From Candidatus Goldiibacteriota bacterium HGW-Goldbacteria-1 (lineage in GTDB: Bacteria; Oederibacteriota; PGYV01), in contig PGYV01000002.1 of the NCBI GenBank assembly GCA_002839855.1, positions 62,786-126,785 of the forward strand: a stretch of 64,000 bases of DNA. The letters are read 5' to 3'. Shown here piece after piece: positions 13,850 through 62,509 of this stretch (positions are counted from its first letter, which is position 1; every line of letters starts with the position of its first letter). The notes under the pieces are model-generated. The model saw nothing but the letters and a program-made list of their open reading frames with translations. It was not told the DNA's origin and did no database searches. A program made the position numbers and the translations under genes.

Positions 13850-13893
13850 TATAGGCGCGCTTAAATAAAAACCAATATTGAAAAGGTGAAAAA

Positions 13894-16968: not shown

Positions 16969-17000
16969 TAAGATATCATATCAAATAAGGAGGAAGTAGA

Positions 17001-18123: not shown

Positions 18124-18151
18124 ATAAAATTAATATAACCGGAGGAAAGCC

Positions 18152-18571: not shown

Positions 18572-18572
18572 A

Positions 18573-27787: not shown

Positions 27788-28941
27788 TTTTGCACCCGCT
27801 TGCTTTGTATTTTTACCGCAATATAAGGCATAAATATGGCGATAAAAAGCACAAGGCTTATTGCAATCATGGCAAGGTTAGGCAGCCATGCCGCGGTAAA
27901 GTGGTTCCATTTTCCCGAATAACCGTAAGACTGTCCCACTGAAAGCAGTATGTAATATAAAAATATTAAAACCAGCGAGAAACTTATGGCGGTTATCTTG
28001 CCGCCTTTCTTTGTAAGCAGCCCAAGTGGTATGCCTATTATGGCAAACGCTATTACAGCGAAGGGAAGCGAGAATTTCTTGTGCAGCTCCAGAATAACCC
28101 AGTTTTTGTCGTGCCTGCTCTGCGGCCCCTTCTTCATTTCTGTATAAAGTTCCTGTGCTGTCATTTCGCGGGAACCTTTTAAATCATCAGCCACGTTCTT
28201 TTTTCGCATGGCGCCCTGTATGTCAAGGTCCACGTAATTGACGGCGAAAAAGATTGAATTTAACCGTTCCGGTTCCGTGAAAGAACCTGTCTGAAGCACG
28301 CCGTTTTTTAACTTAAGCGCTATTCTGAAACTTTTTTCATCGGATATAAATTCGCCTTCTTTGGAAGTTATCACTTTTACCGGTTCGTCAGAGTTTTCCT
28401 TGTCCTTGATGAAAATAAGGATATTTTTTAAAAGCTCGTTCTTATTGTCCTTTTCGCCTATGTAAAAGACGTAATCGTCAAACTGTTTTATAAAAGTGTG
28501 TTCCTGTATAAGGATTCCGGAGCGTTTTTTAACTATTTCGTAATAGACTTTTTTGTATTCCAGATTCGCGGCAGGAAGCACATAGTTGTTAAAAAGCACA
28601 AGCCCTGCCGTGACGATAAGGGCAAGCAGTATTGAAGGGATGGTTACCTTTGCAATGCTTATTCCGCACGCCTGCATACCGTGGTATTCATTGTCCTGCA
28701 CAAGGCGGCTGTAAGTTAAAAGTATGCCCACAAGAAAAGCCATGGGCAGGGTAACCGCAACCGTTGAGGGTAATAATAAAACAAGCAGTTTGGCGACGGT
28801 CAGGATATCCACGCCGTATTTAACCACAAGGTCGCTCATGACAAACAGGGAATTCATGATAAGAAAAAAAGTGAATATAAAAAATCCCATAAGGGTTACG
28901 TATGACACCTCTTTAATTATGTATCTGGAAATTATTTTCAT
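27784..28941 (-). CDS. LptF/LptG family permease (YjgP/YjgQ), LptF-like position
   Basis: A 385-residue paralogue of the next gene with the same 3+3 helix plan. The N-terminus MKIISRYIIKEVSYVTLMGF and LLPSTVAVTLPMAFLVGILL followed by YSRLVQDNEYHGMQACG are typical. A beta-rich periplasmic domain lies at about 135-285, and C-terminal helices include LPFAVIAFAIIGIPLGLLTKKGG. It is the second half of the heteromeric LPS export permease. It overlaps the upstream glycosyltransferase gene and the downstream permease gene by four bases each, making a three-gene minus-strand operon. Confidence 0.9.
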   Translation of the reverse strand: MKIISRYIIKEVSYVTLMGFFIFTFFLIMNSLFVMSDLVVKYGVDILTVAKLLVLLLPSTVAVTLPMAFLVGILLTYSRLVQDNEYHGMQACGISIAKVTIPSILLALIVTAGLVLFNNYVLPAANLEYKKVYYEIVKKRSGILIQEHTFIKQFDDYVFYIGEKDNKNELLKNILIFIKDKENSDEPVKVITSKEGEFISDEKSFRIALKLKNGVLQTGSFTEPERLNSIFFAVNYVDLDIQGAMRKKNVADDLKGSREMTAQELYTEMKKGPQSRHDKNWVILELHKKFSLPFAVIAFAIIGIPLGLLTKKGGKITAISFSLVLIFLYYILLSVGQSYGYSGKWNHFTAAWLPNLAMIAISLVLFIAIFMPYIAVKIQSKRVQK

Positions 28942-35556: not shown

Positions 35557-37596
35557 GTGGCAGAAGTAATATACCGTATAAATTTAAAGATAAGCATAAT
35601 AATATTATTATTTATATTTATTGCGCCTTTTACCTCCCTTAATGCCGGCAGTTTTGGCACAAGTACTGCTGAATTCCTTAAGATAAAACCAGAAGCTGTT
35701 CAGGCGGGAATGGGCGAGGCGGGCACCGCTCTTCCGGACGGCACAAATGCCCTTATTTTTAACCCTGCAAATCTTGCGCTTTTGGATAAAGCGGAATTAA
35801 CTCCCACCGGAATTTTCTGGTTTAATAATATCAACATGCAGCACATTGCTTTTGGCGTGCCGTTTGAAAAAGGCTCCGGTTTTGGTGTAAGCCTGCTTTA
35901 TATTGATTACGGTTCTTATGACTCTACCGGCGGTACGTCGCCTTCTGTTTCCCTGAAAAATGCCGTCTTAACAGCCGGTTTTGGAAAAAGTTTTGGAAAC
36001 ACTTTCAGTTTTGGCGTGCAGTCAAGGGGGCTTTACGAAGATTTTATGGGCGATGTCAGCATGGGTGTGTCTTTTGACACGGGGATTTCGTTAAGCCTTT
36101 TAGAAAATAATATTTATGCGGCATTAACCGTAAAAAATCTGGGATTCTTATCCGGAACAAATGACATGTTTCCTGTGGAATTCGGCGCGGGCTTGGGTTT
36201 CAGGGTATATGAAGGTTCTTTTGATGTTTTCAGCGCCGCGATAGATTTTTCCAAGGCCGCGGGCGCGGATAATATTTTTGCCGGAGCCGGAATTGAATAT
36301 TTTTTATTCCGCGCGGTGGCGCTTAGGCTTGGCGCAAAATATAGTAATGCAATGGACCTTGGCAAAATGTCTTTTTCTGACGTGACAAAACTTACGTCCT
36401 TAACCGGCGGGCTGGGGATTCACGTGGGCGATTTTGGGCTTGATTACGCCTTTACGCCAATGGGTGACCTTGGCGCGGTGCACAGGATATCCGCAACCAT
36501 TAAATTCGGCGCGTCAATGTATGAACAGCAGCTGGCGGAAAAAAACGCGGAATTTGTGCCGAAAGCTATTGAAGTGCCAAAGGTGAACGTGGAAAACGGA
36601 AGAATAAAATCAGTTTCTTTTAAGCCCAATGTCCCTGAAGAAAAAGTAAAGGAATGGAGCCTTGATATCAAGACGTCTGACGGCAAAATTGTAAAGTCTT
36701 TTTCCGGCATGGGCGAAGTGCCAAAGGATTTAAGCTGGGACGGCACGGATAACGTGGGTAAAATAGCGGGCGCAAACACAAATTATATCTTTGATTTTAA
36801 AGCTAAAGACTACACCGGGCAGATTATAAAAACGGTGGGGCAGATTATTCAGCCCAAAAAATATGAATTTGAAGTTCCGGTGGACAAACCGTTTGTCCCG
36901 CTTAAAAACCGCGAAATGCTTGTAGCCCCGATAACACTGCTTGTGTCAAGTGACAGTGACGAAAGAAAAACAGTGCCTTTTGTCATGGTTAACAGGGAGA
37001 TTAAGAAAATTAAAGACTGGAATTTTCAGATATTTGATTCAAAGGATATGCTGTTAAAAGAGTTTTCCGGCGGGGAAACACTGCCTTCGTACCTTGTGTG
37101 GGACGGCCTTGATTCCGCGGGCAAATACGTGGACGACCTTAAAGGGTGCAGATACGTGCTTAACGTAAACGGCGTTAACGGCAAAAAAGCGGTTATAAAA
37201 GACAGGCAGGTTATACGCGACCCGTTTATTATCACGGCAAAGAGCAAAAAACTTAAACTTGGAAAGAAGATATATTTTGACCAGAACTCTTCCGTTATAA
37301 TGCCGGAAATGGCTGACAGGTTAAATCAACTGGCTGCCGAAATTGAAGGGCAGAAAAATGTCCAGGTTTATATACAGGGGCATTCCAGCGAGGAAGGCGA
37401 TTCCGCGCAGAATTTATACCTGTCCCAGGAAAGGGCAAAAACAGTATTGCGGTATTTTGTGGAAAAATATAAAATGTCGCCGCTTTCAATTACCACGGTG
37501 GGTTATGGCGCCAAAGTGCCGCTTAATAAAAACCGCACAGACACGGAAAGAAGAATTAACAGAAGGGTGGAAATAATCATAATGGGTGAAAAATAA
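35557..37596 (+). CDS. PorV-family barrel fused to two FlgD-like Ig modules and an OmpA domain
   Basis: A 679-residue protein with GTG start (AAAAGGGG upstream) and signal peptide (about 1-31). Residues about 32-310 are a UPF0164/PorV-type barrel (KIKPEAVQAGMGEAGTALPD, NALIFNPANLAL). Two Ig modules follow, with LSWDGTDNVGKIAGANTNY (about 390) and LVWDGLDSAGKYVDD (about 515). Residues about 565-679 are a good OmpA/Pal domain: IYFDQNSSVIMPEMADRLNQ, VYIQGHSSEEGDSAQNLYLS, then QERAKTVLRYFV and ERRINRRVEI. The protein would sit in the outer membrane and grip peptidoglycan, joining barrel and wall anchor in one chain. The next gene overlaps its stop by one base. Confidence 0.88.
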   Translation: MAEVIYRINLKISIIILLFIFIAPFTSLNAGSFGTSTAEFLKIKPEAVQAGMGEAGTALPDGTNALIFNPANLALLDKAELTPTGIFWFNNINMQHIAFGVPFEKGSGFGVSLLYIDYGSYDSTGGTSPSVSLKNAVLTAGFGKSFGNTFSFGVQSRGLYEDFMGDVSMGVSFDTGISLSLLENNIYAALTVKNLGFLSGTNDMFPVEFGAGLGFRVYEGSFDVFSAAIDFSKAAGADNIFAGAGIEYFLFRAVALRLGAKYSNAMDLGKMSFSDVTKLTSLTGGLGIHVGDFGLDYAFTPMGDLGAVHRISATIKFGASMYEQQLAEKNAEFVPKAIEVPKVNVENGRIKSVSFKPNVPEEKVKEWSLDIKTSDGKIVKSFSGMGEVPKDLSWDGTDNVGKIAGANTNYIFDFKAKDYTGQIIKTVGQIIQPKKYEFEVPVDKPFVPLKNREMLVAPITLLVSSDSDERKTVPFVMVNREIKKIKDWNFQIFDSKDMLLKEFSGGETLPSYLVWDGLDSAGKYVDDLKGCRYVLNVNGVNGKKAVIKDRQVIRDPFIITAKSKKLKLGKKIYFDQNSSVIMPEMADRLNQLAAEIEGQKNVQVYIQGHSSEEGDSAQNLYLSQERAKTVLRYFVEKYKMSPLSITTVGYGAKVPLNKNRTDTERRINRRVEIIIMGEK

Positions 37597-38654
37597 TGAA
37601 GTTAAGAAATTTTTTTGCTGCTGCGTTAATCTGCGCTGTTTTTGCGGCTGCGGTTTATGCCGCGGAAAGTCCGGAAGCTTTGTACAACAGGGCAAACGAA
37701 CAGGCGGCTATTGGTGATTCTGCCGCGGCTATTGACCTGTTTTACAGGGTCATTGAAGATTATCCCAAATTCACTTACGCGGCTGACGCTATGTACCGCC
37801 TTGGAAATCTGCTGTACCGCACCGAAAGATACGAAGAGTCGGAAAGGGTATTTAATGCCCTGGCGGGTAAATTTAAAAATTATAAACACCTGGATAAGGT
37901 ATATGAAAAACTTATACATATTTATGTGGAAGTTTACCCTGATAATGCCAAAGCGGACGCAATAAGGGACAGGTATAAAAAACGTTTTGGAATTACGCCT
38001 GTGCTTACCGCCATTGACAAGACACTTACAATTTTAAAAAGCGATGAACAGCAGGGGGCGAAAATACTTGCGCTTGACGCGCACCTGATAACCGCCGGCA
38101 GGGTGTCGGTTGTATCACGCCTTGAAAAAGAGGTTTTCCCTTTAAGGAATTACATACTTGCAGAGGCATATTCGGCTGATAGAAAATATATGGTGAAGAA
38201 AGACGGCGGGAAAAAGCAAAAAAATCTTGTTATTTATAATGCCGCGGGAAAAAAAGTAAAAGTGATAAAGCAATCCGCGGGCGGGCAGGCGCCGCAGTGG
38301 TCATGGGACGGCAGATATATCGGCTACACAATTCTGACAAAAAATGTAAGAAAAATAATGGTCTATGACGTCAAAAAGAATAAGGTTAGAAAGCTTTTTT
38401 CCGGAAAAAATGTGGAACCAATGCTTCTGTTTTCTCCGGAAGGCGGAAAGATAGTTTTTATATATAACGGCAATCCGTGGATAATGGAAAAAACCGGAAA
38501 TAACATTTCATTTCTGGGGACGGTTAAGTTAAAAAAAGTAGTAATGGCGGCGTGGAGCCAGTACGGTGAAAAGTTAATTTTTATGCAGGATGGACGCAGT
38601 GATTTTAATCTGATAGTACTTGAAAGAAAGCGCCTTTTAATGGGCGGAAAATAG
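37596..38654 (+). CDS. Exported TPR plus beta-propeller (PD40-like) protein
   Basis: A 352-residue protein starting at a TAATG overlap. Signal peptide 1-22 (AAAVYAAE). TPR-like repeats at about 25-125 (LYNRANEQAAIGDSAAAIDL, YPKFTYAADAMYRLGNLLY). Residues about 185-345 have WD40-like/TolB-type strands: APQWSWDGRYIGYTIL, MLLFSPEGGKIVFIY and AAWSQYGEKLIFMQ, each a 'w.s.dg..i.f' blade. The number of blades is too few for a full propeller alone. It is predicted periplasmic and likely works with the PorV-OmpA protein encoded just upstream. Confidence 0.8.
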   Translation: MKLRNFFAAALICAVFAAAVYAAESPEALYNRANEQAAIGDSAAAIDLFYRVIEDYPKFTYAADAMYRLGNLLYRTERYEESERVFNALAGKFKNYKHLDKVYEKLIHIYVEVYPDNAKADAIRDRYKKRFGITPVLTAIDKTLTILKSDEQQGAKILALDAHLITAGRVSVVSRLEKEVFPLRNYILAEAYSADRKYMVKKDGGKKQKNLVIYNAAGKKVKVIKQSAGGQAPQWSWDGRYIGYTILTKNVRKIMVYDVKKNKVRKLFSGKNVEPMLLFSPEGGKIVFIYNGNPWIMEKTGNNISFLGTVKLKKVVMAAWSQYGEKLIFMQDGRSDFNLIVLERKRLLMGGK

Positions 38655-43072: not shown

Positions 43073-44263
43073 ATGGTTAAATTTGACCTTAAAACAGGCG
43101 CTTTTTGGGCTTTGTGCGGGTATGCGGCGGTGTCTGCTGTGTCCATCACAATGGCGGAGATATTCTATATTTTGTCGCTGGTTTTGTGGATTGTCCTGTT
43201 TGTAAAGCAGAAGGATGAAACTGCTTTTAACATAAGCAAATTCATCCTTATCCCTTTTTCCGCTTTCATATTCATCCACTTTATTGCGGCAGTTTTTGGT
43301 GTTGACCCTTTAAACAGTATAAAAGACTTCAAAAAGGTCTATATAATGGGCGCGGTTTTTCTTGCTGCTTATATCTCCCGCAGCTCTTTGAATAAAGAGA
43401 TGCTTATGCGGTTTTTTGCGGCAGGGGCGATATTTGTCGGCGGGTACGCTTTTTCCACCGGCATCTACCACAGGTTAATAATGCACGAAGCGGATTTTAG
43501 GGCTGTCTCTTTTTCCGGCAACCACATGCACGCGGGCGGAATGCTTGCTATGGCATGTGTGGTGCTGGCGGGGTTTATGGTGGCGGAATTAAAGTCGTTA
43601 AGCGTTAAACGGTTGAACGTTCTTTTATACTCGCTTGGTTCTTTTTTCGCGGGGCTTGGGCTGGTCTTCACATTTACCAGGGGTTCCTGGCTGGCGGCTT
43701 TATGTGGAATGCTTATTATTTTTTTTATGGCCGGAAAGAAATACTTTGTGATTTTTCTTGTGATTATAGCAGCCGCGGGTTTTGCCCTTAAAGACACGGC
43801 AGTTGGCAAAAGGGCAATGAGTTCGTTTAATACAAACAAAGGCACTTCAAATATTGAAAGGGCTTATATGTGGGAAAGCGGTATTAAAATGATAAAAGAT
43901 AAACCGTGGCTTGGCATAGGCACCGCAAATGTCGGGAAAATATATCCGCAGTACATAAATCCGGAAGCGCGGGAGAGGCAGCAGGGGCACCTTCATAATA
44001 CCGCGATTCAGATTGCCGTAATAGACGGGCTTTTGGGGCTGGCGGCATTAATATGGCTTTTTGTATCGCTTTTAATCACGCAGATACGCGGCGCGCTGTC
44101 AGCTAACGGTTATGACAAACACGCGCTTTTTGCTTTTTTTGCCGTAACAGTTGTATTTGTGATAAACGGCCTCTTTGAATATAACCTGTTTTCATCGCAG
44201 GTGGCTTTAATGTTCTGGTTTCTTACGGGAATTTCTTTACGGCCAAGAATTCATGGCCAATAA
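43073..44263 (+). CDS. O-antigen ligase/polymerase family (WaaL/Wzy_C) membrane protein
   Basis: A 396-residue protein with AAGGAG before the ATG. About 11-12 membrane helices. The Wzy_C core includes FTFTRGSWLAALCGM (about 203-217) and a large periplasmic loop (about 250-315) with YMWESGIKMIKDKPWLGIGT, then EARERQQGHLHNTAIQIAV; the HLHN motif is typical of the family. These proteins join polysaccharide to lipid A-core, to proteins, or polymerise O-units; which applies is not decidable here. It is followed by a heptosyltransferase-like gene after eight bases. Confidence 0.88.
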   Translation: MVKFDLKTGAFWALCGYAAVSAVSITMAEIFYILSLVLWIVLFVKQKDETAFNISKFILIPFSAFIFIHFIAAVFGVDPLNSIKDFKKVYIMGAVFLAAYISRSSLNKEMLMRFFAAGAIFVGGYAFSTGIYHRLIMHEADFRAVSFSGNHMHAGGMLAMACVVLAGFMVAELKSLSVKRLNVLLYSLGSFFAGLGLVFTFTRGSWLAALCGMLIIFFMAGKKYFVIFLVIIAAAGFALKDTAVGKRAMSSFNTNKGTSNIERAYMWESGIKMIKDKPWLGIGTANVGKIYPQYINPEARERQQGHLHNTAIQIAVIDGLLGLAALIWLFVSLLITQIRGALSANGYDKHALFAFFAVTVVFVINGLFEYNLFSSQVALMFWFLTGISLRPRIHGQ

Positions 44264-44271
44264 GGAGCAAC

Positions 44272-45333
44272 GTGGTTAAAGTTGAGTTGTCTAAAATAAA
44301 AAGGGTTTTAATAATAAGGCCCGGCGCCATAGGCGATGTGCTTTTAACCACGCCTTTTATACGCGCGCTTAAAAAAGCTCTGCCCGAAGCGGTGATAGAT
44401 TACGTGGCCGCGCCTTTTCCGGCCAAGATACTTGAAGGGAATCCGTACCTTTCAAATGTGATAGTGTTTGACAAGAGTAAAAAAACAAATTTTATTGTTA
44501 AAAATATTAATGATTTAAATTTTTATTTATCGCTTGCCAAAAACAAATACGACCTTGTTTTTGATCTGTTCGGCAATCTGCGCTCCGCGCTTATGGCTTT
44601 TTTAAGCGGCGCGCGGTACAGGGCGGGTTTCACTTTCAGGGTAAGAAAGTATTTGTATAATATCAAAGTAAAGCCGGCGCAGGACCCGATGTATAACGTT
44701 CATTACCACACGCAGTTATTAACGGCAATAGGCATTCCCGAAGACGGCGAAGAACTTGATTTTATAATTCCGGAAGCGGAAAAGGCAAAAGCGACGCGGT
44801 TAATAAACACAGTTAAAACCGGCGGCCCGGTTATAGGGCTTAACCCGTCCGGCACATGGCCCACAAAACGCTGGCCGGAAGAGAAGTTTGGCGAATTGGC
44901 GGGGCTTATTCTAAGCGGCATAAAGGGAAGTTCTGTAATTGTGCTGTGGGGCCCCGGCGAACAGCACATGGCTGAAAAAGTATTGAAGAATTGCCCGGTA
45001 AAACAGGGTATAATAATTGCGCCGCAGACATCGCTTAAGGAACTTGCGGCTTTAATAGGGCAGATGGATGTGCTGGTTACAAACGACGGTGCGCCCAAAC
45101 ATATCAGCGTGGCTATGAAGACGCCGGCGGTTACGATATTCGGGCCCACAAACAGTATTTCGTGGAATCCGCATAATAACCCGTATTATCCCGCGGTGGT
45201 AAGCGCGCTTGCCTGCGCGCCGTGCGATAAAACGCAGTGCCCTGACAAAGATATTGAGTGCATGAAAAAGATAAGCGCGGCGGATGTTTTTGAAACGGTA
45301 AAAAATACTGCGGCATTAAAAAGCCGCGTTTAA
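44272..45333 (+). CDS. Family 9 glycosyltransferase (heptosyltransferase-like)
   Basis: A 353-residue protein with GTG start and AAGGAG upstream. GT-B fold of the ADP-heptose:LPS heptosyltransferase group: RPGAIGDVLLTTPFIRALKK (about 16-35), GLNPSGTWPTKRWPEEKF (about 187), and near the end the donor site DGAPKHISVAMKTPAVTIFG (about 267-286). The C-terminal Cys-rich segment CAPCDKTQCPDKDIECMKKI resembles the common 'C..C...CP....CM..I' end of these enzymes. It acts on LPS core at the cytoplasmic face. Its place beside the ligase-like gene supports surface polysaccharide synthesis. Confidence 0.92.
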   Translation: MVKVELSKIKRVLIIRPGAIGDVLLTTPFIRALKKALPEAVIDYVAAPFPAKILEGNPYLSNVIVFDKSKKTNFIVKNINDLNFYLSLAKNKYDLVFDLFGNLRSALMAFLSGARYRAGFTFRVRKYLYNIKVKPAQDPMYNVHYHTQLLTAIGIPEDGEELDFIIPEAEKAKATRLINTVKTGGPVIGLNPSGTWPTKRWPEEKFGELAGLILSGIKGSSVIVLWGPGEQHMAEKVLKNCPVKQGIIIAPQTSLKELAALIGQMDVLVTNDGAPKHISVAMKTPAVTIFGPTNSISWNPHNNPYYPAVVSALACAPCDKTQCPDKDIECMKKISAADVFETVKNTAALKSRV

Positions 45334-45347: not shown

Positions 45348-46007
45348 ATGGCTGAAATTGACATAGACAAGATGCTGGAACAAAGGGAACAGGCGGGAAA
45401 AACCGGAAAGAAAAAAAGCGGCGTTAATATGAATGTTATATACGGCGCAGCGGCAGCGGTTGTGCTTGGTGTAATTGCTTTTATTGTTGTCACAATGATG
45501 AAACCAAACGCGGGGCTTTATTTTCCCGTGGAAAATACCGGTTTATCACTGTTTAATATTTCCGGTAAGAGCCCGGAGCGCTGGGAGTTTCTTGATAAAA
45601 AAGAAGTTATAAACGGAGAAACTTTCGCGATACTAAACAGGACAGACACGGGAAATAATTATACAGTGCAGGAATATTATTCATACGGAAAAACCGGAGT
45701 TATAAAAGCGTATATTTCTGAAAACTTTGGCGATAAAAAACCTTATGGTATGATAATGCTTCCGCCAAAGGTAAAAAAAGGCGCTAAGTTTAAAGCGGCT
45801 GATACCGCCGCCGGCCCGATTATGGGATCGGTAAACGAACCGGAGCTGATTTTAACAACGGCCGGGGAAATGGAAGCGGTAAGGGTGGATTATAAAGGCG
45901 GCAGGGCGACTGATAAAAGTATATGGTATGCCCAAGGCCAGGGCGTAATAAAGACGGCTGACAGGTATAAAAATGAAACCATGGATATTATAAGCATAAC
46001 AAAATAG
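45348..46007 (+). CDS. Membrane-anchored protein of unknown function preceding the SprA-family gene
   Basis: A 219-residue protein with AAGGAGGA before the ATG. A charged cytoplasmic start (MAEIDIDKMLEQREQAGKTG) is followed by one membrane helix (about 29-50) and a periplasmic beta-rich domain. The domain has GLYFPVENTGLSLFNISG, QEYYSYGKTGVIKAY, MLPPKVKKGAKF and YAQGQGVIKTADRY. This pattern recalls lipoprotein-like domains with a 'WYA.GvG.vk' ending, which occur in proteins of unknown role. It sits between sugar-transfer genes and the giant translocon gene, 58 bases ahead of the latter. I do not assign a function. Confidence 0.7.
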   Translation: MAEIDIDKMLEQREQAGKTGKKKSGVNMNVIYGAAAAVVLGVIAFIVVTMMKPNAGLYFPVENTGLSLFNISGKSPERWEFLDKKEVINGETFAILNRTDTGNNYTVQEYYSYGKTGVIKAYISENFGDKKPYGMIMLPPKVKKGAKFKAADTAAGPIMGSVNEPELILTTAGEMEAVRVDYKGGRATDKSIWYAQGQGVIKTADRYKNETMDIISITK

Positions 46008-46065: not shown

Positions 46066-49000
46066 GTGATTCGGCGCGCGATTAAATTATTTCTAAGCGT
46101 GCTGATTTTTTCCGCGGTTTTTGCCGCTGCGGAATTATCAGCGGCAGAGCCGTCGATAGCAGAAGAGCCGGCCGCCTCAGGGGTTACGTCTGTCAACCGC
46201 TCGCCTTTTAATTTAAGGGCCAAGACTGACGGCATAAGGGTTATTTTGTCATGGGACGCTGATACCGCAGACGGTGTGACATACGAAGTTTACCGCGCGT
46301 CCGGGCCGGATGAAGACTATATTACAATTACAAAAGAGCCGTTAAAAGAACTCATATACATTGATTCGGCGGATTCAAGCGTAATTCCGCCGGAGAGCAA
46401 TGTCACGTATTATTACAAAGTCGGCGCGGTTTTTAACGGCGCAAACCTTGGCGATTCAAATGTGGCTACCGCAAAACCGGTCGGCGTGCTTGAAGCGCCG
46501 CGCCAGATAGAAGCGTCTGCGGGTTTTTCTTCGGTAACGCTAAACTGGGTACAGCCGGATTCCACAGGGCCTTTTGAACTGTCCGGATATAACATTTACC
46601 GTTCCTTTAACAGGGAAGAACAGGGAATGCGGATTAACCCTGAAATCCTGAAAGTTACCACTTATGAAGATACAGGCCTTTCTGAAGGGACAGAATATTT
46701 TTACAGGGTGCAGACTGTTGATTTAAGGGGCGGCATGGTAATGTCACTTCCTGTATCCGCTATACCATATTCGCGTTTGGGCGGGCCCGCTGATGTCACG
46801 GTAAAAGCCGTATCTCAGGAAAGCATAAGGCTGTCCTGGCTGGAACCATTGGTAACAGGGGCTGCCGGAATACAGGGTTATAATATTTTTAGAAGCAATA
46901 ATGCATCCTCTTTTTCGGAACAGCCGCTTAACATAGGCATTGTAAAACCGTATAAAGATGAAGCGGGCAGGTCTTTTTATTACGATAACATAATATTAAG
47001 CCGCGACCCGCCTGTCCCGGGAGTGGAATATTTTTATAAGATAGTGCCTGTTGACGCTTATGGCAATTCCGGCACCGCAAGTGTGCCTGTGTCAACAAAA
47101 ATAGAATGGGTAAGCGTGCCGCAGACGGGTATTCTTTCCGCTGATATTTCCCAGTACGGGCTGCCGCCGGAATCCAAGCTTGAAATCCGGGGGATGAAGT
47201 CTGTTAAGATTGGTTACACGGGTGTAATGCCGGATGATGCCATAGTGACAGGCGATAAAAAAGGTATTGATTTCACGCAGGCGTTCAGAGTAAGGTTAAA
47301 CGGCAACATAGGCAGGAAGATACTTGTGGATGTGGATTATGATGACCAGAATCCCACAAGTGAATACACAAAAATTTCCATACAGTATCAGGGCGAGAAA
47401 GAAGAGACAATTCAGGAAGCTTCTTTCGGCGATATAACATTATCGTTGCCGCCCACGCGCTACGCCAGCTATTCGCAGACGCTTTTTGGAATAAAAGGAA
47501 GGGCTGTGCTTGGCGATAAGTTTTCTGTGACCGCTTTTGGCGCGCAGGCAAAAGGTATTTCTGCCGTGCAGGAATTTACCGGAAATTTAAGGCAGAAAGA
47601 AGTAAACGGAAAAGAAGGTTACACGATACTTGACAACCAGTATCAGAAAAACATCTACTATTACCTGTCAAAAGACCCGGCGCACGTAAGCGCGCTTGCG
47701 CCCAACGCCGGGCTGCCCGTTCCTGCCGTGCCGGTTTCCATAAAGCCGGGTTCTGTTTTAATTTATTATGACGACGGGATAGCCAGCAATGACATTCCCG
47801 CCGAAGTTATTTATTCCGTCCCCAACAGGACTTTTCATTTCAGGCCGCTTTTAATAGGTTCGGATTATGTTATTGACTATAAGAACGGCGTTGTGAAATT
47901 TAACATCGGCATACCTGATACAAGCACCATGGCTGTGGCTTTTGAAACAAGCGACGGGCAAAGGGTGGGGTATTCTTCGGACGGCAGTTTTAATTTTAAC
48001 GAAACCGGGCTTACATCCGCCAGCACCGGTTACACGTCCGACAGCGCGCATCTTATACAGGATGGGCGGCAGAATACAACAGGCGATTTATCCCATAAAG
48101 TGCTTAACTATTATTACCTTGGCGAAACGCAGATAGAAAACCCGGCCAATGACGGGTATTTTTACATAGAGATAAGAAAAAAATCGCAGGAAAGCATTAA
48201 TATTCCGCAGCCCAATAACAATGATTCTTCAAGGTATTATGAAATTGACACGGATATGGGGCTTTTAAAATTTAAGGCGTTCTTTCCGTTTGCTTCAAAT
48301 TATTCAACACCGGCAGACCCGGGCAATAATGTAAGGCCTTCTAACTTAACGGAAGACGCGTACAGCTTAAGCGCGAATAAGTCCCTTTATGAAATTTATC
48401 TTAAATATAATTACAGGGTATCTTCTTACAGGCTTGATAATTCGCCCGTGGTGTACGGCAGCGAAAGGGTTCAGATTGACGGGCGCGACCTTTTAAAGGA
48501 TAAAGACTATAATATTTTTTATGAGACCGGTGAAATAATTTTTATAGATAAAAATCTTGTGCAGCCAAGTTCCAGGATAAAAATTGCGTATGAATATTTT
48601 CCGTTCTTTCAGAGTTTTCAAAGCACGGTTGTGGGTGCAAGGATAGATTATAAGCTGTTTGATAATTTAAACCTGGGCAGTACGTGGCTGTGGAAATTTT
48701 CCAGCGCCGGGACAACAGTCCCTGACGCGCGTTCAACGGACACAAGGCTTTCAACGCCTGCCAGTATGTACATGCTTGACGGAGACATAAAACTTACGCT
48801 GGATAAAAAACAGATTAACGAAGTTATAAACGGCGTGCCGTTTGTGGACGGGGCGGATTTACCGGTGGATTTCAGCTTTCAGGGTGAAGTGGCGTACAGC
48901 GATTTTAACCCTAACCTTTTTGAAAATGTCAGGACAAAGGAAAAAGGCGCAGCCATGATTGATAATATGGAAGGCGCAGATAATGTGTTATCGCTTTCCA

Positions 49001-52000
49001 CGAACAGGTATTCATGGTTTCCGGCAAGCATACCGGCGGGAGTGGTGCCTGAAAACAGGGTGCTTACAGGAAAAGAAAATGTCACTGAAAACGGGCATCA
49101 GATAGTCACCGAAGGCACGCTGGGTTCTTCGGCACAGGTGATGCTGCGTTTAAATTACAGCGGGCTTACGCAGGACAGATGGGACGCGTACAGGTATGTG
49201 GTATCCGCTTTCGGGGAAAATCTTAATAATTTAAATTATATGGAAATGTGGGTTTATGTGGATACGGACAATCCGGTAAAGCTTAAAGTGGATGTGGGTA
49301 TAATAAGCGAAGACAGCAACGGCAATAATACTTTTCAGCTGAATTCCACGTCCGGTGTAAGGCGGGACAGTGAAGACGCGGAAAATAACGGCAAATTAAA
49401 AGCCGTTTATGATATAGGCATAGGCAGGGGTATTTATCCGGAAAATCCGGACTACTGGGGCGCGGGCAATGATGTCCTTGACACTGAAGATATGGACAAT
49501 GACGGGCAGATGGACACTTCAGAGTCATATTATGAATTCAGTTCGGACGGCCCCAATTATTACCATCCGCAGCTGACACTGTCCCAGAAGGGCTGGCATC
49601 TGGTAAAGATACCCCTTTCTCAGTTTTCACAGTCTTTTGGGCTTAATTCTGACCAGCGCAATCCAAGCAGTACGGCATTTTTCTCCATAATCAAACACGT
49701 AAGGGTAAGCATAAAAGGCGCCGGCGCGTCGCCAAGCGCGGGGCATATTAAAATTGAATCCATTAACTTTCTGGGAAATTCGTGGAGGTTAAAGACCTTA
49801 ACCGGCGCTACAGACATGGTGGGTAATATTATAAATTCGCCGAATACCGCAAAGATGAACGTGGAAACGGTAAATCAGAATACCGATGAAGCGTATACGC
49901 CTAACGTGGATTATTTTGATTACCAGAAGGACGAAGATAAAAAATCCGAAGAGGCGCTTAAAATTTCCTATAAACTTTCCGCTTATGACCAGAGGCCTTC
50001 GGACGGTCAGCCAATATATTACACCACCAAATTTTTAAGCGAGTCCACGGGGTATGACTACCAGCAGTATAAAAAAATAAAGATGGACCTTTTATTTTCC
50101 AGAAAAAGCGGGGATGCGGGCGCGGGAAGGGTTATGTTTGTACGCCTGGGAACCGCTGCGCCGCCGCCCGGTGTGGACGAGACAAATTATTACCAGTACA
50201 ACCTTCAGATGGATTCTGTACCGGCGGACGGGGGCTGGCATACGGTGGAATTTGAAATTGACGGGTCCGATAAAAAACGCAGCGGCGCCGTGGGTTCTCC
50301 GAATTTAAGAAAAGTGCAGTACATTACTCTGGGTTTCATAAATCCGAATAACACCGTAACTGACGACGTCATATATGTAAATAACATAAGGCTTGTGGAT
50401 CCGATTTCAAAAGTGGGTATGGCAAGGTATACCAATTCAGCCCTTAATATGGCGGGTTTTGGAAACCTGACGCATACATACGAAGAACTTGATTCCGGAT
50501 TCAACACAATCCTTGATATGGACAGGGCAAAATATCTGCAGCATTCAAGGGACAACAGGGTAAGGTTTGACTACACACAGATAAAAGAGGTGCCTGTCTC
50601 TGCGGAGATTGCAAAAACCGAGAGGTACACCGAAGATCAGTACAGAAATGACCCCACGTACACCAACAGTTTTTCAACGCCTGACACCGTGGTGGACAGT
50701 TTCAGAAATGACATATCGCTGATGTCGGTGCCCGGACTTACGCTTTCCAATGCTATTACCTTAAGAAATATGAAGTTCAATTATTTTCAGCTTTATGAAT
50801 ATCAGAATAATCTAAGTGAGGTGTTCACAGTAAGGCCTTACGCGCGCTATATGATTCCCACAGAGATAAAAGTGGGAGACCTGTTTACCATACCGCTTGG
50901 GACAAACACTCTTGAAAGCAGCATGCTTGTAACAAACACCAAAACCGATTACGCGGATTATTTCGGCGTGACAATGAACACGCAGGCGACATATTATGAT
51001 CAGTGGAACTTAAAAAGGGAACAGGACCACGACTATAAGGGGAGTTTTACGGTAGATAAGCTATCCATTAACCCGTCATATAATTATAAACTTGGCGAAG
51101 AAAAAGGAAACCTTTTAAGCCGGTTTAATTATTATTATGATTCAATAGGCGATAAAAATTATACCGATAAATACCTTGTGACAAAGCGGGAAATAACACC
51201 AAAGATTAATATCAGCGCCCAGGAGATAGGTATAGTTTCACCTTCCATTGACTACACTTCAGGATACCGCTATGAGTATACGTCAAACCTGCTTTATACA
51301 AACGCCTCGCTGTCGGCGCGTGCGCGCGTGGCAATCAGTAAAATTATACCGGTGCTTCCGGATATCACGAATATTTCCGCGGGGGTATCGGATAGCAACA
51401 GGCGTTATGACAACAATTATTACCCGGGTTCTTTTAAGGCGTTTGATGAACTGCCGTTTGAGAAAAAATGGTATGTTTTTATATGGGAGTACTTTTACGA
51501 CGAAAAATCTGTGGAAAGGCTTGAAGCGCTGTCTTATGGAGGCGCCATGTCGCGCGATTATACCCTTGACCTGGCGGAAATTAAATTTTTTGACAGGCTA
51601 AGGATAGCTATCGGCGCAAATTACAGTATTAGGCGCGATTCGCAGACCAGGACTTTAACGGGGATAAACGATTCTTTAAGGCTGTCGGCGCGTGAAATTT
51701 ATTTTGATAAGGTTACTCTGCCGGGGCTGGAATTTTTAGTAAAGGACCAGACTGTATCCGGGTCTTATAATTACACGGTTACAAATACATATAACCCGCT
51801 TGACAGAAAAGAACTTATAAGGGGAACTAAAGGGCATGATGCCAGTTTTAATCTGCCATATAAGACAGAAGGGGATAACCCTATAAACGGATCTTTAAGG
51901 TTAACTTACAGCAGGTCTGATTCAAAAGAGAAATATATTGAAAATTACCTTTGGACTCTGCGGCCGGAATTAAGCCTTAATTACGCGCTTAATATTACAC

Positions 52001-52305
52001 AGCCGTTTACAATACCGGGCTGGATACCGTTTCTGGGTAATAAAATAATAAAACTTGATAACAGTATAAATCTAAGAAGCGTGCTGGCGTATTCGGTTAT
52101 GCAGGGCGACGGCAGGGGCGATAATAATTTAAGCAAGAAAGACATTAAAGAACTGACTGCTGATCTGGGTTTTTCTTACAATATCCTCAGCAATATACGC
52201 ACCAATGTCAACCTGCGCTACAGGCAGAAAGACGATTCGCAGGGGCAGGCAAGGGACAGTTTTAAATCTTTTGGCGGCACGCTTGAGTTTATAGCGGAAT
52301 TTTAG
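46066..52305 (+). CDS. sprA: SprA-family giant outer membrane translocon with N-terminal FN3 domains
   Basis: A 2079-residue protein with GTG start and signal peptide (about 1-26). Three FN3-like domains (about 44-345) precede a region that follows SprA/Sov closely. IRGMKSVKIGYTGVMPDD, then IGRKILVDVDYDDQNPTSEY and YQGEKEETIQEASFGDITLS, and SQTLFGIKGRAVLGDKFSVT with LDNQYQKNIYYYLSKDP (about 365-540). The 'GRDLLKDKDYNIFYETGEII' block lies near 805, and AAMIDNMEGADNVLS (about 960) equals the D-D/N-x-EG block of SprA. DMDNDGQMD (about 1140) looks calcium-binding. The rest is beta-rich and ends FGGTLEFIAEF, a barrel-type end. In Bacteroidota SprA is the type IX secretion pore with PorV as its plug. 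N-terminal FN3 domains are not usual for SprA. Confidence 0.85.
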   Translation: MIRRAIKLFLSVLIFSAVFAAAELSAAEPSIAEEPAASGVTSVNRSPFNLRAKTDGIRVILSWDADTADGVTYEVYRASGPDEDYITITKEPLKELIYIDSADSSVIPPESNVTYYYKVGAVFNGANLGDSNVATAKPVGVLEAPRQIEASAGFSSVTLNWVQPDSTGPFELSGYNIYRSFNREEQGMRINPEILKVTTYEDTGLSEGTEYFYRVQTVDLRGGMVMSLPVSAIPYSRLGGPADVTVKAVSQESIRLSWLEPLVTGAAGIQGYNIFRSNNASSFSEQPLNIGIVKPYKDEAGRSFYYDNIILSRDPPVPGVEYFYKIVPVDAYGNSGTASVPVSTKIEWVSVPQTGILSADISQYGLPPESKLEIRGMKSVKIGYTGVMPDDAIVTGDKKGIDFTQAFRVRLNGNIGRKILVDVDYDDQNPTSEYTKISIQYQGEKEETIQEASFGDITLSLPPTRYASYSQTLFGIKGRAVLGDKFSVTAFGAQAKGISAVQEFTGNLRQKEVNGKEGYTILDNQYQKNIYYYLSKDPAHVSALAPNAGLPVPAVPVSIKPGSVLIYYDDGIASNDIPAEVIYSVPNRTFHFRPLLIGSDYVIDYKNGVVKFNIGIPDTSTMAVAFETSDGQRVGYSSDGSFNFNETGLTSASTGYTSDSAHLIQDGRQNTTGDLSHKVLNYYYLGETQIENPANDGYFYIEIRKKSQESINIPQPNNNDSSRYYEIDTDMGLLKFKAFFPFASNYSTPADPGNNVRPSNLTEDAYSLSANKSLYEIYLKYNYRVSSYRLDNSPVVYGSERVQIDGRDLLKDKDYNIFYETGEIIFIDKNLVQPSSRIKIAYEYFPFFQSFQSTVVGARIDYKLFDNLNLGSTWLWKFSSAGTTVPDARSTDTRLSTPASMYMLDGDIKLTLDKKQINEVINGVPFVDGADLPVDFSFQGEVAYSDFNPNLFENVRTKEKGAAMIDNMEGADNVLSLSTNRYSWFPASIPAGVVPENRVLTGKENVTENGHQIVTEGTLGSSAQVMLRLNYSGLTQDRWDAYRYVVSAFGENLNNLNYMEMWVYVDTDNPVKLKVDVGIISEDSNGNNTFQLNSTSGVRRDSEDAENNGKLKAVYDIGIGRGIYPENPDYWGAGNDVLDTEDMDNDGQMDTSESYYEFSSDGPNYYHPQLTLSQKGWHLVKIPLSQFSQSFGLNSDQRNPSSTAFFSIIKHVRVSIKGAGASPSAGHIKIESINFLGNSWRLKTLTGATDMVGNIINSPNTAKMNVETVNQNTDEAYTPNVDYFDYQKDEDKKSEEALKISYKLSAYDQRPSDGQPIYYTTKFLSESTGYDYQQYKKIKMDLLFSRKSGDAGAGRVMFVRLGTAAPPPGVDETNYYQYNLQMDSVPADGGWHTVEFEIDGSDKKRSGAVGSPNLRKVQYITLGFINPNNTVTDDVIYVNNIRLVDPISKVGMARYTNSALNMAGFGNLTHTYEELDSGFNTILDMDRAKYLQHSRDNRVRFDYTQIKEVPVSAEIAKTERYTEDQYRNDPTYTNSFSTPDTVVDSFRNDISLMSVPGLTLSNAITLRNMKFNYFQLYEYQNNLSEVFTVRPYARYMIPTEIKVGDLFTIPLGTNTLESSMLVTNTKTDYADYFGVTMNTQATYYDQWNLKREQDHDYKGSFTVDKLSINPSYNYKLGEEKGNLLSRFNYYYDSIGDKNYTDKYLVTKREITPKINISAQEIGIVSPSIDYTSGYRYEYTSNLLYTNASLSARARVAISKIIPVLPDITNISAGVSDSNRRYDNNYYPGSFKAFDELPFEKKWYVFIWEYFYDEKSVERLEALSYGGAMSRDYTLDLAEIKFFDRLRIAIGANYSIRRDSQTRTLTGINDSLRLSAREIYFDKVTLPGLEFLVKDQTVSGSYNYTVTNTYNPLDRKELIRGTKGHDASFNLPYKTEGDNPINGSLRLTYSRSDSKEKYIENYLWTLRPELSLNYALNITQPFTIPGWIPFLGNKIIKLDNSINLRSVLAYSVMQGDGRGDNNLSKKDIKELTADLGFSYNILSNIRTNVNLRYRQKDDSQGQARDSFKSFGGTLEFIAEF

Positions 52306-52336: not shown

Positions 52337-55300
52337 ATGAAAAAATTATTTTTAACAGCACTTTTAATGCTTCTATCCGGTTTTGCCATGGCTGCGCCAT
52401 ATGCGGTAACCGGGCTGTCGGTATATAATTGCGGCGGCATAAAACTTGTATGGGACGCGCCGTCTGACACTTCGACTGCTGTATCTTATGTCATAAACAG
52501 GTCTGTGATAAGCGCAGGGCCGTTTGACCTTACCGTTACCGCTTCTGTTAATAATTACTATGACGCATCAGCTGATACCACGCTGGCGTATTATTATACG
52601 GTTAAGTCGGTGGATTTTACCGGCGCTACAGGCGCTGCGTCAGCGGCAAAAAGCACTTTGCCGGCTTCGCCTGAAAACCTGCAGGCAGTACCTTATAATG
52701 CAAAAAACATGCTATCCTGGCAGCCGTCTTCGGACGGTGCGGTTGAGTCATATAACATTTACAGAAGCAGCGGATATGGTTTTAAGATACTTAATAATAC
52801 TTATAGTACAGAGTACACTGATGAAAGCGCTGCAAACGGCACCCTTTACTGGTACAGGGTGGCATCGTTAAAAACAAATCAGGAAGGTGCCTGCGCGTGT
52901 TCTGCTTCGGCAAAGCCATATATTCCTCCTTTTCCTGTAAGCGCAGTTGATGCTTTTGTGGAAGCGGGGGAGCTTACCGCCGCCTGGACAATGTCCGCTC
53001 TGCAGGGGACTTACGAAATAGACAGTTTCAAAATATTCAGGTCAACTTCTTATGGGGATGAAAGTTTTTCTCCGGCTTCTGTTACGTACACTTCTTACAG
53101 CGAAACCCTGCCGCTTGCCGGGCAGTTATATTATTACGCGGTGCGCACCATTGACACACAGGGAAATTCCTCGCCGGCGTATTGGTTTTCCGCATATAAT
53201 CCAGGATTGCCGTCGGTACCTTTGGGGCTTACTGTCACGGCGGCAAATGCGGCGCGGATAAATATTTCCTGGCAGGCAAATCCGGCAGCTGAAGATATTA
53301 CCGCGTATCAGGTAATAAGAAACTCCGCAATAATTGCCACAAAAGCCACCCCAACCGCCGCTTCATACGAAGACATGGATGTGGTTTTAGGAAATACATA
53401 TTCATATTATATTCAGGCAATAAATTCTTTCGGCACAGGGGATGGCTCATCTGCGGTGACACAGACGGTTATACCCGCGCCACCGGCAGGTCTTACTGCA
53501 ACCACAGGTGTGCTGCCCGGAACTGTTTATCTTAACTGGGCTGATAATAATGCTGAAGAAAATATTCAGACATATAATATTTACAGGGCCACGTCCGCGG
53601 TGACATTTAATTATACAACCCCGTATTTAAGTACGGGAACAGCCGGCGTTACAGACGCAGCCGTTGTAACGGGGACGCCATATTTTTACAGTGTATCAGC
53701 GGTGACCGAAACTGCGTATGAGTCTTTTTCTGAAATAGTCTCTGCAATGGCTGTGACTTACGCGGCGCAGCCGGAAAATCTGACAGCAACCGCTTACAGC
53801 AATTATGCCGAACTTTCGTGGGATAATCCCGGCGCGTCATACGCGATTGCTTCATTTAAAATATATAAAAGCACAGATGGTTCTGTTTTTAATTATCTGG
53901 CATCAGTTTCGCCCCCGCAGTTTAATGACGCAGGGCTTACAAACGGCAGTACCTATTATTACCGCGTGTCTGCTGTAAATATTTATGGCGAAAGCACCCA
54001 CTCCGAGCATGTGACCATTACCCCGCAGGCGGGGTATTTTACGGAACCAAAAAACCTGACTGCAACGGCAGAAGCGGGGGACGGCAGAATAATACTTTCA
54101 TGGTCCGCGGTTCAATCGCAGGAAATTACAGGGTATAAAATATATAGAAGCACGGTGTCAGGGTCTTATGACACTGTGCCTTACGCGACGGCTGTTACAA
54201 TCACCGCATATACAGACAGCGCGGCCGCCACGCTTACCACTTATTATTATAAAGTCAGCGGCTATGGGGTGTCAGAAACCGCAAAGTCAGCTGAAGTTTC
54301 AGCAGCACCGTTTATCAGGCCGGGTCCGGCTTTAAATCTTACGCTTACAAGCCTGTATGACAGGGTATATCTTACATGGGATTCACCGGCAAATGATTAT
54401 ACATACAAAACAACTGTGAAATATAATATTTACAGAAGCACTTCGTCGCTTTCTTACAGCCAAAGCGCGTTTACCGCGCTTGCATCGGAATATACGGGGG
54501 CAAGTTATATTGACGCGCAGATAAATACGGCGGGAACTTATTACTATAAGATAAAAGTTATTGACGACATGGGAAATGAAGATACATCCACAACGGGCGT
54601 GCAGATAGTGTTAAGCGGGGTTATGGAACCGCCTGCGGTTTTAAAAGGCGTGGCTTCCAACAAACAGGTAAGGCTTGTCTGGTCATCGATAAATCCGGAT
54701 TCTTACAGTGTGTACAGAAAAACAACACAGACGGCGGCTGAATTTGGTGCGCCTATTGCCTATAATCTGGGTTTTGACGTAAAAGAGTACGTGGACAGTA
54801 ATGTGGAAAATAACATCACTTACATTTACGCGGTGGCCGCGGTAAATGATTCCGGTGAAGGCCCCAAGTCCAATCCGGTTTATGTCACGCCGTACCTTGC
54901 TTCGGGGCTTCCGGCGGACGCTTCGGTAAAATTTGAAATAGAAAATAAAAAAGACGTAAGGTTATGGTGGAATCCCGCGTCTGACGGAACATATCAGGTT
55001 GCGGGTTACAGCGTTTTCAGAAGCAATGACAACGGTTATTCTTATGTGCATTTAAGTGTAACTGCCGCTTCTGTTGTGGAATACACCGATACAGCAACGG
55101 AATGGGATAATAATTATCTTTATATGGTACGTGTGGTGGATTCAGGCGGGAATACAGACGCCACATACACGCCTGTTAAAGTGGAACTGCCGCTTCCGAA
55201 AAATAAAATAAGGGTGTTTTCCAACCTTGTGGATTTAAGCAAAGGGGAAAAACTAAGATTAAAATACCTGCTTGTAAAGAGCGGCAAACTTAAATTTTAT

Positions 55301-55507
55301 ATCACCACTTTAAGCGGAGTGCATGTGCGGACGCTTATTGAAAGTACATCAGAACAGGGAATAACTAAAAATCTGCCATTTGAAAGCGGTGACATTTTCT
55401 GGGACGGCACAAATCAGTCCGGTAAGAAAGTGGCATCCGGCGCTTATCTTATTGTGCTTGAAATGGACGGCGTAAGGGTAATAGAAAAAGCAGCTGTAGT
55501 TAAATAA
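52337..55507 (+). CDS. Secreted protein of ten FN3 domains with FlgD/CTD-like end
   Basis: A 1056-residue protein with signal peptide 1-19 (GFAMAAP). Ten fibronectin type III modules of about 90-95 residues follow, each with the '...L.W..p......Y.iyRs' core, for example LTATAYSNYAELSWDNPG, LSWSAVQSQEITGYKIYRST and VRLVWSSINPDSYSVYRKT. The last 75 residues form a FlgD/type IX-like module: IRVFSNLVDLSKGEKLRLKY, KFYITTLSGVHVRTL, FWDGTNQSGKKVASGAYLIV. The gene lies 31 bases after the SprA-family gene, so it may be a cargo or an extracellular partner of that pore (inference). A cell-surface adhesive or structural role is likely. Confidence 0.82.
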   Translation: MKKLFLTALLMLLSGFAMAAPYAVTGLSVYNCGGIKLVWDAPSDTSTAVSYVINRSVISAGPFDLTVTASVNNYYDASADTTLAYYYTVKSVDFTGATGAASAAKSTLPASPENLQAVPYNAKNMLSWQPSSDGAVESYNIYRSSGYGFKILNNTYSTEYTDESAANGTLYWYRVASLKTNQEGACACSASAKPYIPPFPVSAVDAFVEAGELTAAWTMSALQGTYEIDSFKIFRSTSYGDESFSPASVTYTSYSETLPLAGQLYYYAVRTIDTQGNSSPAYWFSAYNPGLPSVPLGLTVTAANAARINISWQANPAAEDITAYQVIRNSAIIATKATPTAASYEDMDVVLGNTYSYYIQAINSFGTGDGSSAVTQTVIPAPPAGLTATTGVLPGTVYLNWADNNAEENIQTYNIYRATSAVTFNYTTPYLSTGTAGVTDAAVVTGTPYFYSVSAVTETAYESFSEIVSAMAVTYAAQPENLTATAYSNYAELSWDNPGASYAIASFKIYKSTDGSVFNYLASVSPPQFNDAGLTNGSTYYYRVSAVNIYGESTHSEHVTITPQAGYFTEPKNLTATAEAGDGRIILSWSAVQSQEITGYKIYRSTVSGSYDTVPYATAVTITAYTDSAAATLTTYYYKVSGYGVSETAKSAEVSAAPFIRPGPALNLTLTSLYDRVYLTWDSPANDYTYKTTVKYNIYRSTSSLSYSQSAFTALASEYTGASYIDAQINTAGTYYYKIKVIDDMGNEDTSTTGVQIVLSGVMEPPAVLKGVASNKQVRLVWSSINPDSYSVYRKTTQTAAEFGAPIAYNLGFDVKEYVDSNVENNITYIYAVAAVNDSGEGPKSNPVYVTPYLASGLPADASVKFEIENKKDVRLWWNPASDGTYQVAGYSVFRSNDNGYSYVHLSVTAASVVEYTDTATEWDNNYLYMVRVVDSGGNTDATYTPVKVELPLPKNKIRVFSNLVDLSKGEKLRLKYLLVKSGKLKFYITTLSGVHVRTLIESTSEQGITKNLPFESGDIFWDGTNQSGKKVASGAYLIVLEMDGVRVIEKAAVVK

Positions 55508-60367: not shown

Positions 60368-62509
60368 GTGCGCATAAAAAGTGTAATTCTGTCCATTTTT
60401 GCAGTTATTATTTTATTTGCAGCGGTTCCGTTTGTGTCTGCGGACGATTTTACCGATACGCTGCAGATTACCTGGGAGAAAGTTAAAGAACCGTTTTTTG
60501 ATAAATACAATCCTTTTGGAACAGGTGCAAGGGCAATAGGGATGGGAGAGGCTTTTTCAGCTATTGCTGACGACTCTTCCACGGTATATTACAATCCTGC
60601 CGGCCTTGCGCAGATGGATCATAATGAAATTTTCTGGACAGGCGGAAGTTATTATGGCGGTGTCCCTTATACCGGATTTGCGTCTTTCACAATGGCGCTG
60701 GGAGGGCAGTATTTCGGCCTTTCGTATGAAAAACTTTATCATCCAATAGGCAGGTATCCGGAGAAAGTCGTTATACCGGTACGCATTGGCAATGCAGGTG
60801 TTCCTCCTCCAACTCCTCTTTTTTATACAGAAAATATTGACATAACTGTTGGTACTTATGACTGGTTTGGCGGCGCAGGAATGGGCGGGCTTGACCCTTC
60901 GTGGCAGGAATTTTTAGGCGATAAATACAGGAAGTACATAAACCTTCCTTTTCAGACAAATAGCGTGCTTTTAACATATGCCACTCCTTTAACCTCGGAC
61001 AAAAGTTTTAACTTTGGCGTAAACGTTAAATATATGTTTACTGATGCTGATGCTAAAAAAATTATTACTGATGAATTTGACGCATGGTCATGGGGGCTGG
61101 ATGTGGGCTTCCTTTACAAGCTGCGCCTTATTGAATTCTTAAAAGACCTTAATATTTCAATTATGTTAAGGGATGTTTCGGGACAGATGAAGAGGTACAA
61201 GACCGGAATAGAAAAAAACTTATTTTTTACTTCAACCATCGGGCTTTCAATGCGCACAACGCAGCTTATAGAAAAAGAAGTCACAAGTTTTTCCGTTGAT
61301 TTTAATTCTGTAAATGACCCGGGCGTTTTAGAGCAGGAAAGATACAGGTTTAATTTTGGAGCGGAGCAGTGGTTTATAGACGGCCATTTTGCGGTAAGGG
61401 GCGGCCTTGTGGATGTTATGTATCCCGGCACGTGGAGGGCGTCTTTGGGCTTGTCAGCCAAGTATATTTTTGGAATTGATTACGCATATGTATTTGGAGT
61501 TCCGCTTGGACAGGATGCTGAAAACGAAAGCGATTCGCACTGGATATCGCTGCACTGGGAATGGGGTAAAGTTGTAAGAAAGCTTCCCACACCGGATGTT
61601 TTTGCCGCGGTAGAACCAATTTCTTTTGCTCCTAAAAACGGAGAAACTGTAATTTTCAAGCTTAACGCGGATTCAAAAGCGGGAATAGACAGGTGGGCGC
61701 TTAACATACTTGATAAAAACAATAACCTTGTTAAATCTTATGTGGATATAGGCGCTCCGCCTTCGCAGATTATATGGAATGGCACGGATAACAAATATCA
61801 GCCCCTGTCTGACGGGGAATACACTTTTATATTTGAAGCCACGGACAAACTTGGAAGCACGGCTTCCACTCCGGTGCAGACTGTAAAGCTGTTCACTCCG
61901 GTGCTTGAAGCTGTAAATAAAGAAGCACTGAATAAATTAAAAATTCTTTTAAAACAGATCGGCGACAGAGACCTTGCGGAAGACAACGCTCAGATGGCAA
62001 ACGCGAAAGCGGGCGTGGAAGAGTGGAAGGCAATAAAAGGCAAACCGACACCGGTTCCTCCTCCTCCCGCAGGCACAATACCGGAGCCGCTTCCTTTAAC
62101 GGCGTTCCCGGGTTTTGAAAACTATCAGGGCGCAACGCCAAGTGCGGCAGCTGGCAATGTTAATGTGGCGGGTTTCCCGAATGTGGATTCATCCGCAATC
62201 AGGTCCGCTTACATCGCAACCGATGCTGACGGCAATAAACAGTTTATGATGGAATATGCAACGGCAAACACCATACCGCAGTATGTAATGAAAGAAGTGG
62301 CAATGATGGCCAGAAGCATAGCTGAAAGCATGGGCGGTTCCATCAGTAACATAGGTATTAATGCTTTATATGGCGGCAGCAATACGATGGCGGTCAACGT
62401 GCCTATTGCACAGGCTCAGAACTATTCAAGAGGATACATTTCCGCGGAACAGATGCTTCGCGGTGCAAATATTACGCTGAACGGCGAGATAATAAATCCT
62501 AATTATTAA
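60368..62509 (+). CDS. PorV/UPF0164-family barrel with FlgD-like Ig module and extra C-terminal domain
   Basis: A 713-residue protein with GTG start (GCGGAGGACAA upstream) and signal peptide (1-25). The signature YNPFGTGARAIGMGEAFSAI then DDSSTVYYNPAGLAQ opens a barrel of about 400 residues, with unusually long loops rich in Gly/Tyr (about 110-195). An Ig module (about 415-515) contains SFAPKNGETVIFKLNADS, IIWNGTDNKYQPLSDGEY and EATDKLGSTA. A helical stretch and Pro-rich linker (PTPVPPPPAG, about 560) lead to an unassigned C-terminal domain (about 575-713; KQFMMEYATANTIPQYVMKE, ANITLNGEIINPNY). Outer membrane location is likely. Confidence 0.85.
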   Translation: MRIKSVILSIFAVIILFAAVPFVSADDFTDTLQITWEKVKEPFFDKYNPFGTGARAIGMGEAFSAIADDSSTVYYNPAGLAQMDHNEIFWTGGSYYGGVPYTGFASFTMALGGQYFGLSYEKLYHPIGRYPEKVVIPVRIGNAGVPPPTPLFYTENIDITVGTYDWFGGAGMGGLDPSWQEFLGDKYRKYINLPFQTNSVLLTYATPLTSDKSFNFGVNVKYMFTDADAKKIITDEFDAWSWGLDVGFLYKLRLIEFLKDLNISIMLRDVSGQMKRYKTGIEKNLFFTSTIGLSMRTTQLIEKEVTSFSVDFNSVNDPGVLEQERYRFNFGAEQWFIDGHFAVRGGLVDVMYPGTWRASLGLSAKYIFGIDYAYVFGVPLGQDAENESDSHWISLHWEWGKVVRKLPTPDVFAAVEPISFAPKNGETVIFKLNADSKAGIDRWALNILDKNNNLVKSYVDIGAPPSQIIWNGTDNKYQPLSDGEYTFIFEATDKLGSTASTPVQTVKLFTPVLEAVNKEALNKLKILLKQIGDRDLAEDNAQMANAKAGVEEWKAIKGKPTPVPPPPAGTIPEPLPLTAFPGFENYQGATPSAAAGNVNVAGFPNVDSSAIRSAYIATDADGNKQFMMEYATANTIPQYVMKEVAMMARSIAESMGGSISNIGINALYGGSNTMAVNVPIAQAQNYSRGYISAEQMLRGANITLNGEIINPNY

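Follow-up and report, generated by a model that had tools for sequence, protein, structure and literature searches.

SprA is the pore of the type IX secretion system (T9SS) in the Bacteroidota, and the barrel of the known protein comprises 36 strands. In F. johnsoniae, energy input is thought to free the substrate–carrier complex from the translocon (PMC10994853), and in P. gingivalis PorW connects the motor ring to the pore (PMC8754138). Type A CTDs in Bacteroidota are all recognised by the PorV shuttle, and a known case of pairing between cargo and barrel is that of type B CTDs and PorP/SprF (PMC12618676). CTD proteins have been described as restricted to Bacteroidota (2023 review, PMC10202324) and T9SS genes as absent outside the FCB phyla (2024, PMC11285876); in the literature we found no report of a T9SS in Elusimicrobia or Goldbacteria, the mentions encountered being reference-list entries or unrelated.

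Our analysis of a 64-kb stretch of DNA from Candidatus Goldiibacteriota (the window, at its full length of 64,000 nucleotides) indicates that the product of the gene at 46066–52305 is very probably SprA/Sov, the outer-membrane translocon, in a type IX-like secretion system of this phylum. The evidence presented here consists of SprA homology (in sequence and in predicted fold), CTD proteins, PorV-family barrels and the pairing of their genes; transport direction, the role as a pore and the handover from CTD to PorV would follow by analogy with F. johnsoniae. Cargo would thus cross the inner membrane by Sec and show a C-terminal Ig-like type A CTD, would enter the SprA barrel, and would exit bound to a PorV-family shuttle barrel, which would often be encoded right behind the cargo gene.

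The SprA/Sov homologue

The open reading frame begins with GTG and has no internal stops, and sprA occurs as a single copy in a host genome of 2.86 Mb that is rated 100% complete. The gene and the segments discussed below are as follows.

46066..52305, + strand: SprA/Sov-family giant outer-membrane translocon, 2079 aa (TIGR04189, profile match to PDB, predicted fold)
46207..47100, + strand: N-terminal FN3-like domains of SprA, about residues 48–137, 144–231 and 238–345 (Pfam, titin match)
48478..48543, + strand: conserved DG..LL.DKDY.I.YETG.I.F block, residues 805–826 (translation and homologue alignment)
48958..48975, + strand: IDNMEG motif, residues 965–970 (translation and homologue alignment)

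The original prediction, made from the letters alone, described a 2079-residue product following the SprA/Sov plan, with an ‘IDNMEG’ segment and a ‘DG..L..G.DY.I.Y..G.I.f’-type block, and this description is borne out. Both motif regions contain invariant or near-invariant residues in an alignment of 22 homologues, and TIGR04189, the curated SprA/Sov NCBIfam equivalog, is matched by the protein at 205.9 bits (E 6.8e-61; curated cut-off 200 bits) and by 22/22 of its phylum homologues. Searching with the alignment profile of the 22 homologues found F. johnsoniae SprA (PDB 6h3i) at E 6.4e-40. Of the two profiles proposed as a check, only TIGR04189 recognises the protein, Pfam SprA_N (PF14349) giving no match to it; since PF14349 matches 4 of the 22 phylum homologues, at best with 2.3e-08, that model is at the limit of its reach in the phylum.

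The proposed check by structure prediction was carried out with AlphaFold on two overlapping fragments, residues 355–1520 (42-sequence alignment, mean pLDDT 82.1) and residues 905–2079 (41-sequence alignment, mean pLDDT 84.9), and each half of the SprA region, modelled separately, finds SprA as its best match in the PDB. For both fragments the best Foldseek match is F. johnsoniae SprA with probability 1.00 (best E 1.8e-54 and 1.7e-35, respectively), four SprA PDB entries rank first, and all further matches are weaker by more than 20 orders of magnitude; the TM-scores of the fragment models to SprA are moderate, at about 0.5 over the query. Both models contain many long predicted strands, and we infer that in the whole protein they would close into one giant barrel. 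The 46066–52305 product is a genuine SprA/Sov homologue outside the Bacteroidota. It shares with SprA (F. johnsoniae, PDB 6h3i/8gl8) and Sov (P. gingivalis) its size, block order, TIGR04189 match and the predicted fold of its halves, but differs in sequence (about 13–16% identity in the Foldseek alignments), in giving no PF14349 match and in belonging to a genome in which GldM and PorU were not detected.

Two other sources of the match were weighed and set aside. One is a phage-tail or chance match: the weak phage-tail model matches seen in some homologues lie far below the SprA match. The other is the FN3 domains: the TIGR04189 and Foldseek matches fall on residues outside them.

The three FN3-like domains predicted ahead of the SprA region were recovered, two of them passing in Pfam and one by a match of residues 236–350 to titin FN3, with the first domain weak when taken alone. 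Such N-terminal domains are found in the Goldibacteria protein and not in classical SprA/Sov. The N-terminal extension measures about 256–482 aa in the Goldibacteria branch, 168–191 aa in Firestonebacteria and mostly 86–175 aa in Elusimicrobia, and its FN3-bearing form is best read as an addition within the one (Goldibacteria) branch, accessory and not pore-defining. The FN3 domains are probably periplasmic, and they may replace the N-terminal region of SprA that docks SkpA in F. johnsoniae.

Cargo signals and PorV-family shuttles

The context of sprA had been taken as free of type IX parts, a view that does not hold: two CTD proteins and four PorV-family genes lie within the window, and 29 PorV-family genes in the genome. 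The two candidate cargoes and one of the barrels are given here.

7093..12480, + strand: 1795-aa protein with a C-terminal T9SS-type (type A-like) CTD, candidate cargo
52337..55507, + strand: FN3-repeat protein, 1056 aa, with a type A-like CTD at its end (about 55238–55504), candidate cargo, in synteny with SprA within the order
60368..62509, + strand: 713-aa PorV-family barrel with an Ig domain of FlgD type

Seventeen of the 29 PorV-family genes score over the cut-off of NF033709 (best 204.9 bits against a cut-off of 90); of the window proteins that were scored with the PorV equivalog NF033710, none reached its cut-off. The type A CTD model TIGR04183 has 39 matches in the genome, 27 of them over cut-off. 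FlgD_ig-type domains mostly finish 11–20 residues ahead of the stop, and some CTD-like matches are internal or in proteins possibly not secreted, such as the anti-sigma-like protein of L040/L044 described below. Of the 29 PorV-family genes, 12 have a CTD on their own strand less than 400 bp upstream, against 0.15 expected from the 72 CTD-like places in the genome. Moreover, when the comparison was repeated with 30 high-scoring PorV loci of six other genomes, 9/24 upstream neighbours of PorV were CTD-ended, compared with 26/1357 ORFs from SprA loci. A CTD likewise forms the end of the FN3-repeat neighbour of sprA at seven further loci of the order. Near lptFG–sprA, CTD genes occur in some Elusimicrobia and, together with PorV-like genes, in Firestonebacteria.

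These parts resemble the type A CTD and PorV shuttle of the Bacteroidota T9SS in having TIGR04183/FlgD-type C-terminal Ig domains and PorV-family barrels, but here there are 29 PorV-family genes, 12 of them directly behind a CTD gene. Pairing of a cargo gene with its own barrel gene recalls type B CTDs and their dedicated PorP/SprF, from which the present proteins differ, the domains being matched by the type A model and the barrels by the PorV/PorQ model.

Classical parts not found and a candidate motor

The search of the genome for further T9SS genes gave a divided answer: PorV-family barrels and CTD proteins are present, and GldM and PorU were not found. GldM was matched in 0/45 phylum genomes in a search of 384 genomes in which three other genomes score 264–394 bits (an earlier 59-genome run, made without a positive control, is uninformative alone). 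The genome has no match to PF01364 (C25 peptidase), and its matches to PorU (NF033707) are confined to the CTD part, with no full PorU; PorU reaches 575–776 bits in four genomes from other phyla. GldN had no match in any genome and no control responded, so that this result is uninformative. By homology, the system is type IX-like as to its predicted pore, shuttles and signal, and fails two tested classical features, GldM and PorU. The following genes of the window may bear on how the SprA route is powered.

12593..13849, + strand: PorV/PorQ-family barrel with C-terminal FlgD-type Ig, first gene of the candidate motor operon
13894..16968, + strand: 1024-aa TPR protein
17001..17735, + strand: TolQ/ExbB proton channel protein
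17692..18571, + strand: two TolR/ExbD-type proteins (17692–18123 and 18152–18571)
18540..19511, + strand: TonB-family protein

The operon at 12593–19511 (PorV-Ig, TPR, TolQ/ExbB, two ExbD, TonB) is like Tol-Pal and TonB–ExbB–ExbD systems in uniting TolQ/ExbB, two ExbD/TolR and a TonB-family protein, but it opens with a PorV-Ig barrel and a TPR protein of ~1020 aa, and this arrangement recurs in much of the phylum. As far as the fetched stretches extend, the succession PorV, TPR, ExbB, ExbD is shared by the window's order and sister lineages, and part of it by Firestonebacteria. Judged from gene order only, this operon would be the leading candidate for a replacement motor, and a Tol/TonB-type motor acting via the TPR protein would take the energy-input, PorW-like role.

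It is also conceivable that a complete classical T9SS is present, with GldLMN and PorU too divergent for the models. The uninformative GldN search, matched nowhere, leaves room for this, and the 1024-aa TPR protein does score 118.7 bits with the SprE/PorW model NF052312, which is under the cut-off of 250 and lower than its scores with generic TPR models. Considering, however, that GldM is missing from all 45 phylum genomes in a search that detects it elsewhere, and that a genome rated 100% complete has no C25 peptidase while PorU is readily found in four others, we regard a hidden classical system as rather unlikely. Conceivable too, though less likely than not, is a second type IX architecture beyond the Bacteroidota superphylum, in which a SprA pore and many cargo-specific PorV shuttles would operate without GldM and PorU, served by a motor of Tol/TonB type encoded in an operon that opens with PorV-Ig and a giant TPR protein. 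The SprA export route outside the Bacteroidota may be differently powered.

Gene neighbourhood of sprA

35557..37596, + strand: 679-aa PorV-family barrel carrying an Ig domain and a C-terminal OmpA domain, in synteny with SprA within the order
37596..38654, + strand: TPR plus beta-propeller-like protein (PorE-like pieces)
43073..44263, + strand: O-antigen ligase/Wzy_C-type protein (domain match)
44272..45333, + strand: glycosyltransferase family 9, heptosyltransferase-like (domain match)
45348..46007, + strand: 219-aa single-TM protein, no family assigned, syntenic with SprA in the order (domain search, synteny)
26687..28941, − strand: lptF and lptG, here 17 kb from sprA

The original prediction placed SprA outside its classical setting, and the neighbours it named are indeed there, sugar-transfer genes upstream and the FN3-repeat protein downstream; as a sign of oddity this setting, including the lack of gldKLMN beside sprA, is weak, because T9SS genes are scattered across Bacteroidota genomes too (review, PMC10202324). 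Within the window's order, sprA is flanked by the Wzy/O-antigen ligase, GT9 and 219-aa block and by the FN3-repeat gene, followed by mutL, and the same upstream block begins with the PorV-OmpA barrel and the TPR-propeller protein. Together, the latter two (35557–38654) show a likeness to PorE pieces, rearranged. In distant relatives the usual place of sprA is beside lptF/lptG, which divergently adjoin it in 49/80 fetched loci (a count that leaves out the window's own lptFG), and a ComF-like gene often comes after it (39/80 fetched loci). In several genera of the order, sprA is immediately preceded by a gene for a methyl-accepting chemotaxis-type protein (e.g. L073:1073-2704), which is absent from that position in the window. 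For an ORF of 920 aa at 31408–34170, neither Pfam nor NCBIfam gave a match under the thresholds applied.

The divergent lptF/lptG genes and, in the window's order, the O-antigen ligase and heptosyltransferase genes upstream would also fit a SprA homologue recruited to lipopolysaccharide or surface-glycan work instead of protein export. We consider such a recruitment improbable, given that this genome also has CTD and PorV genes, that some relatives carry such genes near sprA, and that the SprA fold is retained; moreover, a link with LPS fits a T9SS equally, cargo of P. gingivalis being attached to A-LPS (PMC9143113). That the gene is degenerate or a contaminant with no present function, a reading raised because knowledge of the host comes from assembled environmental genomes, and one for which we found no positive evidence, can be dismissed with near certainty in view of the open 2079-codon frame, synteny around sprA conserved over several families of the order, residues invariant across the phylum in the homologue alignment (including the terminal Phe), and a SprA tree that groups the protein with its own phylum.

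Relatives and implications

Close named relatives are mostly labelled as Candidatus Goldiibacteriota or candidate division FCPU426, and more distant ones as Firestonebacteria and Elusimicrobia; in the SprA tree Goldibacteria group with Firestonebacteria, and Elusimicrobia stand apart. In the NCBI taxonomy Goldiibacteriota are listed among the candidate phyla, Elusimicrobiota as a separate phylum. Pore, shuttles and cargo signal co-occur in Goldiibacteriota, and the pore is also found in Firestonebacteria and Elusimicrobia. If the motor does differ, the comparison would show which parts form the core of type IX secretion and would make the role of the energy step testable. Four genomes from other phyla (G045, G047, G051 and G053) have SprA-like matches and PorU over cut-off, with no GldM or GldN match, which suggests that further lineages may lack the classical motor.

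Finally, as to what might be exported, cellulases have been reported from Goldbacteria (PMC7031533), and we suggest that a type IX-like route could export them. Additionally, on contig 4 of the same genome near 323900 (L040/L044), a PorV-family gene directly follows the gene of a 317-aa protein that starts with an anti-sigma-like zinc finger and ends in a type IX-like CTD, which may link signalling to export.
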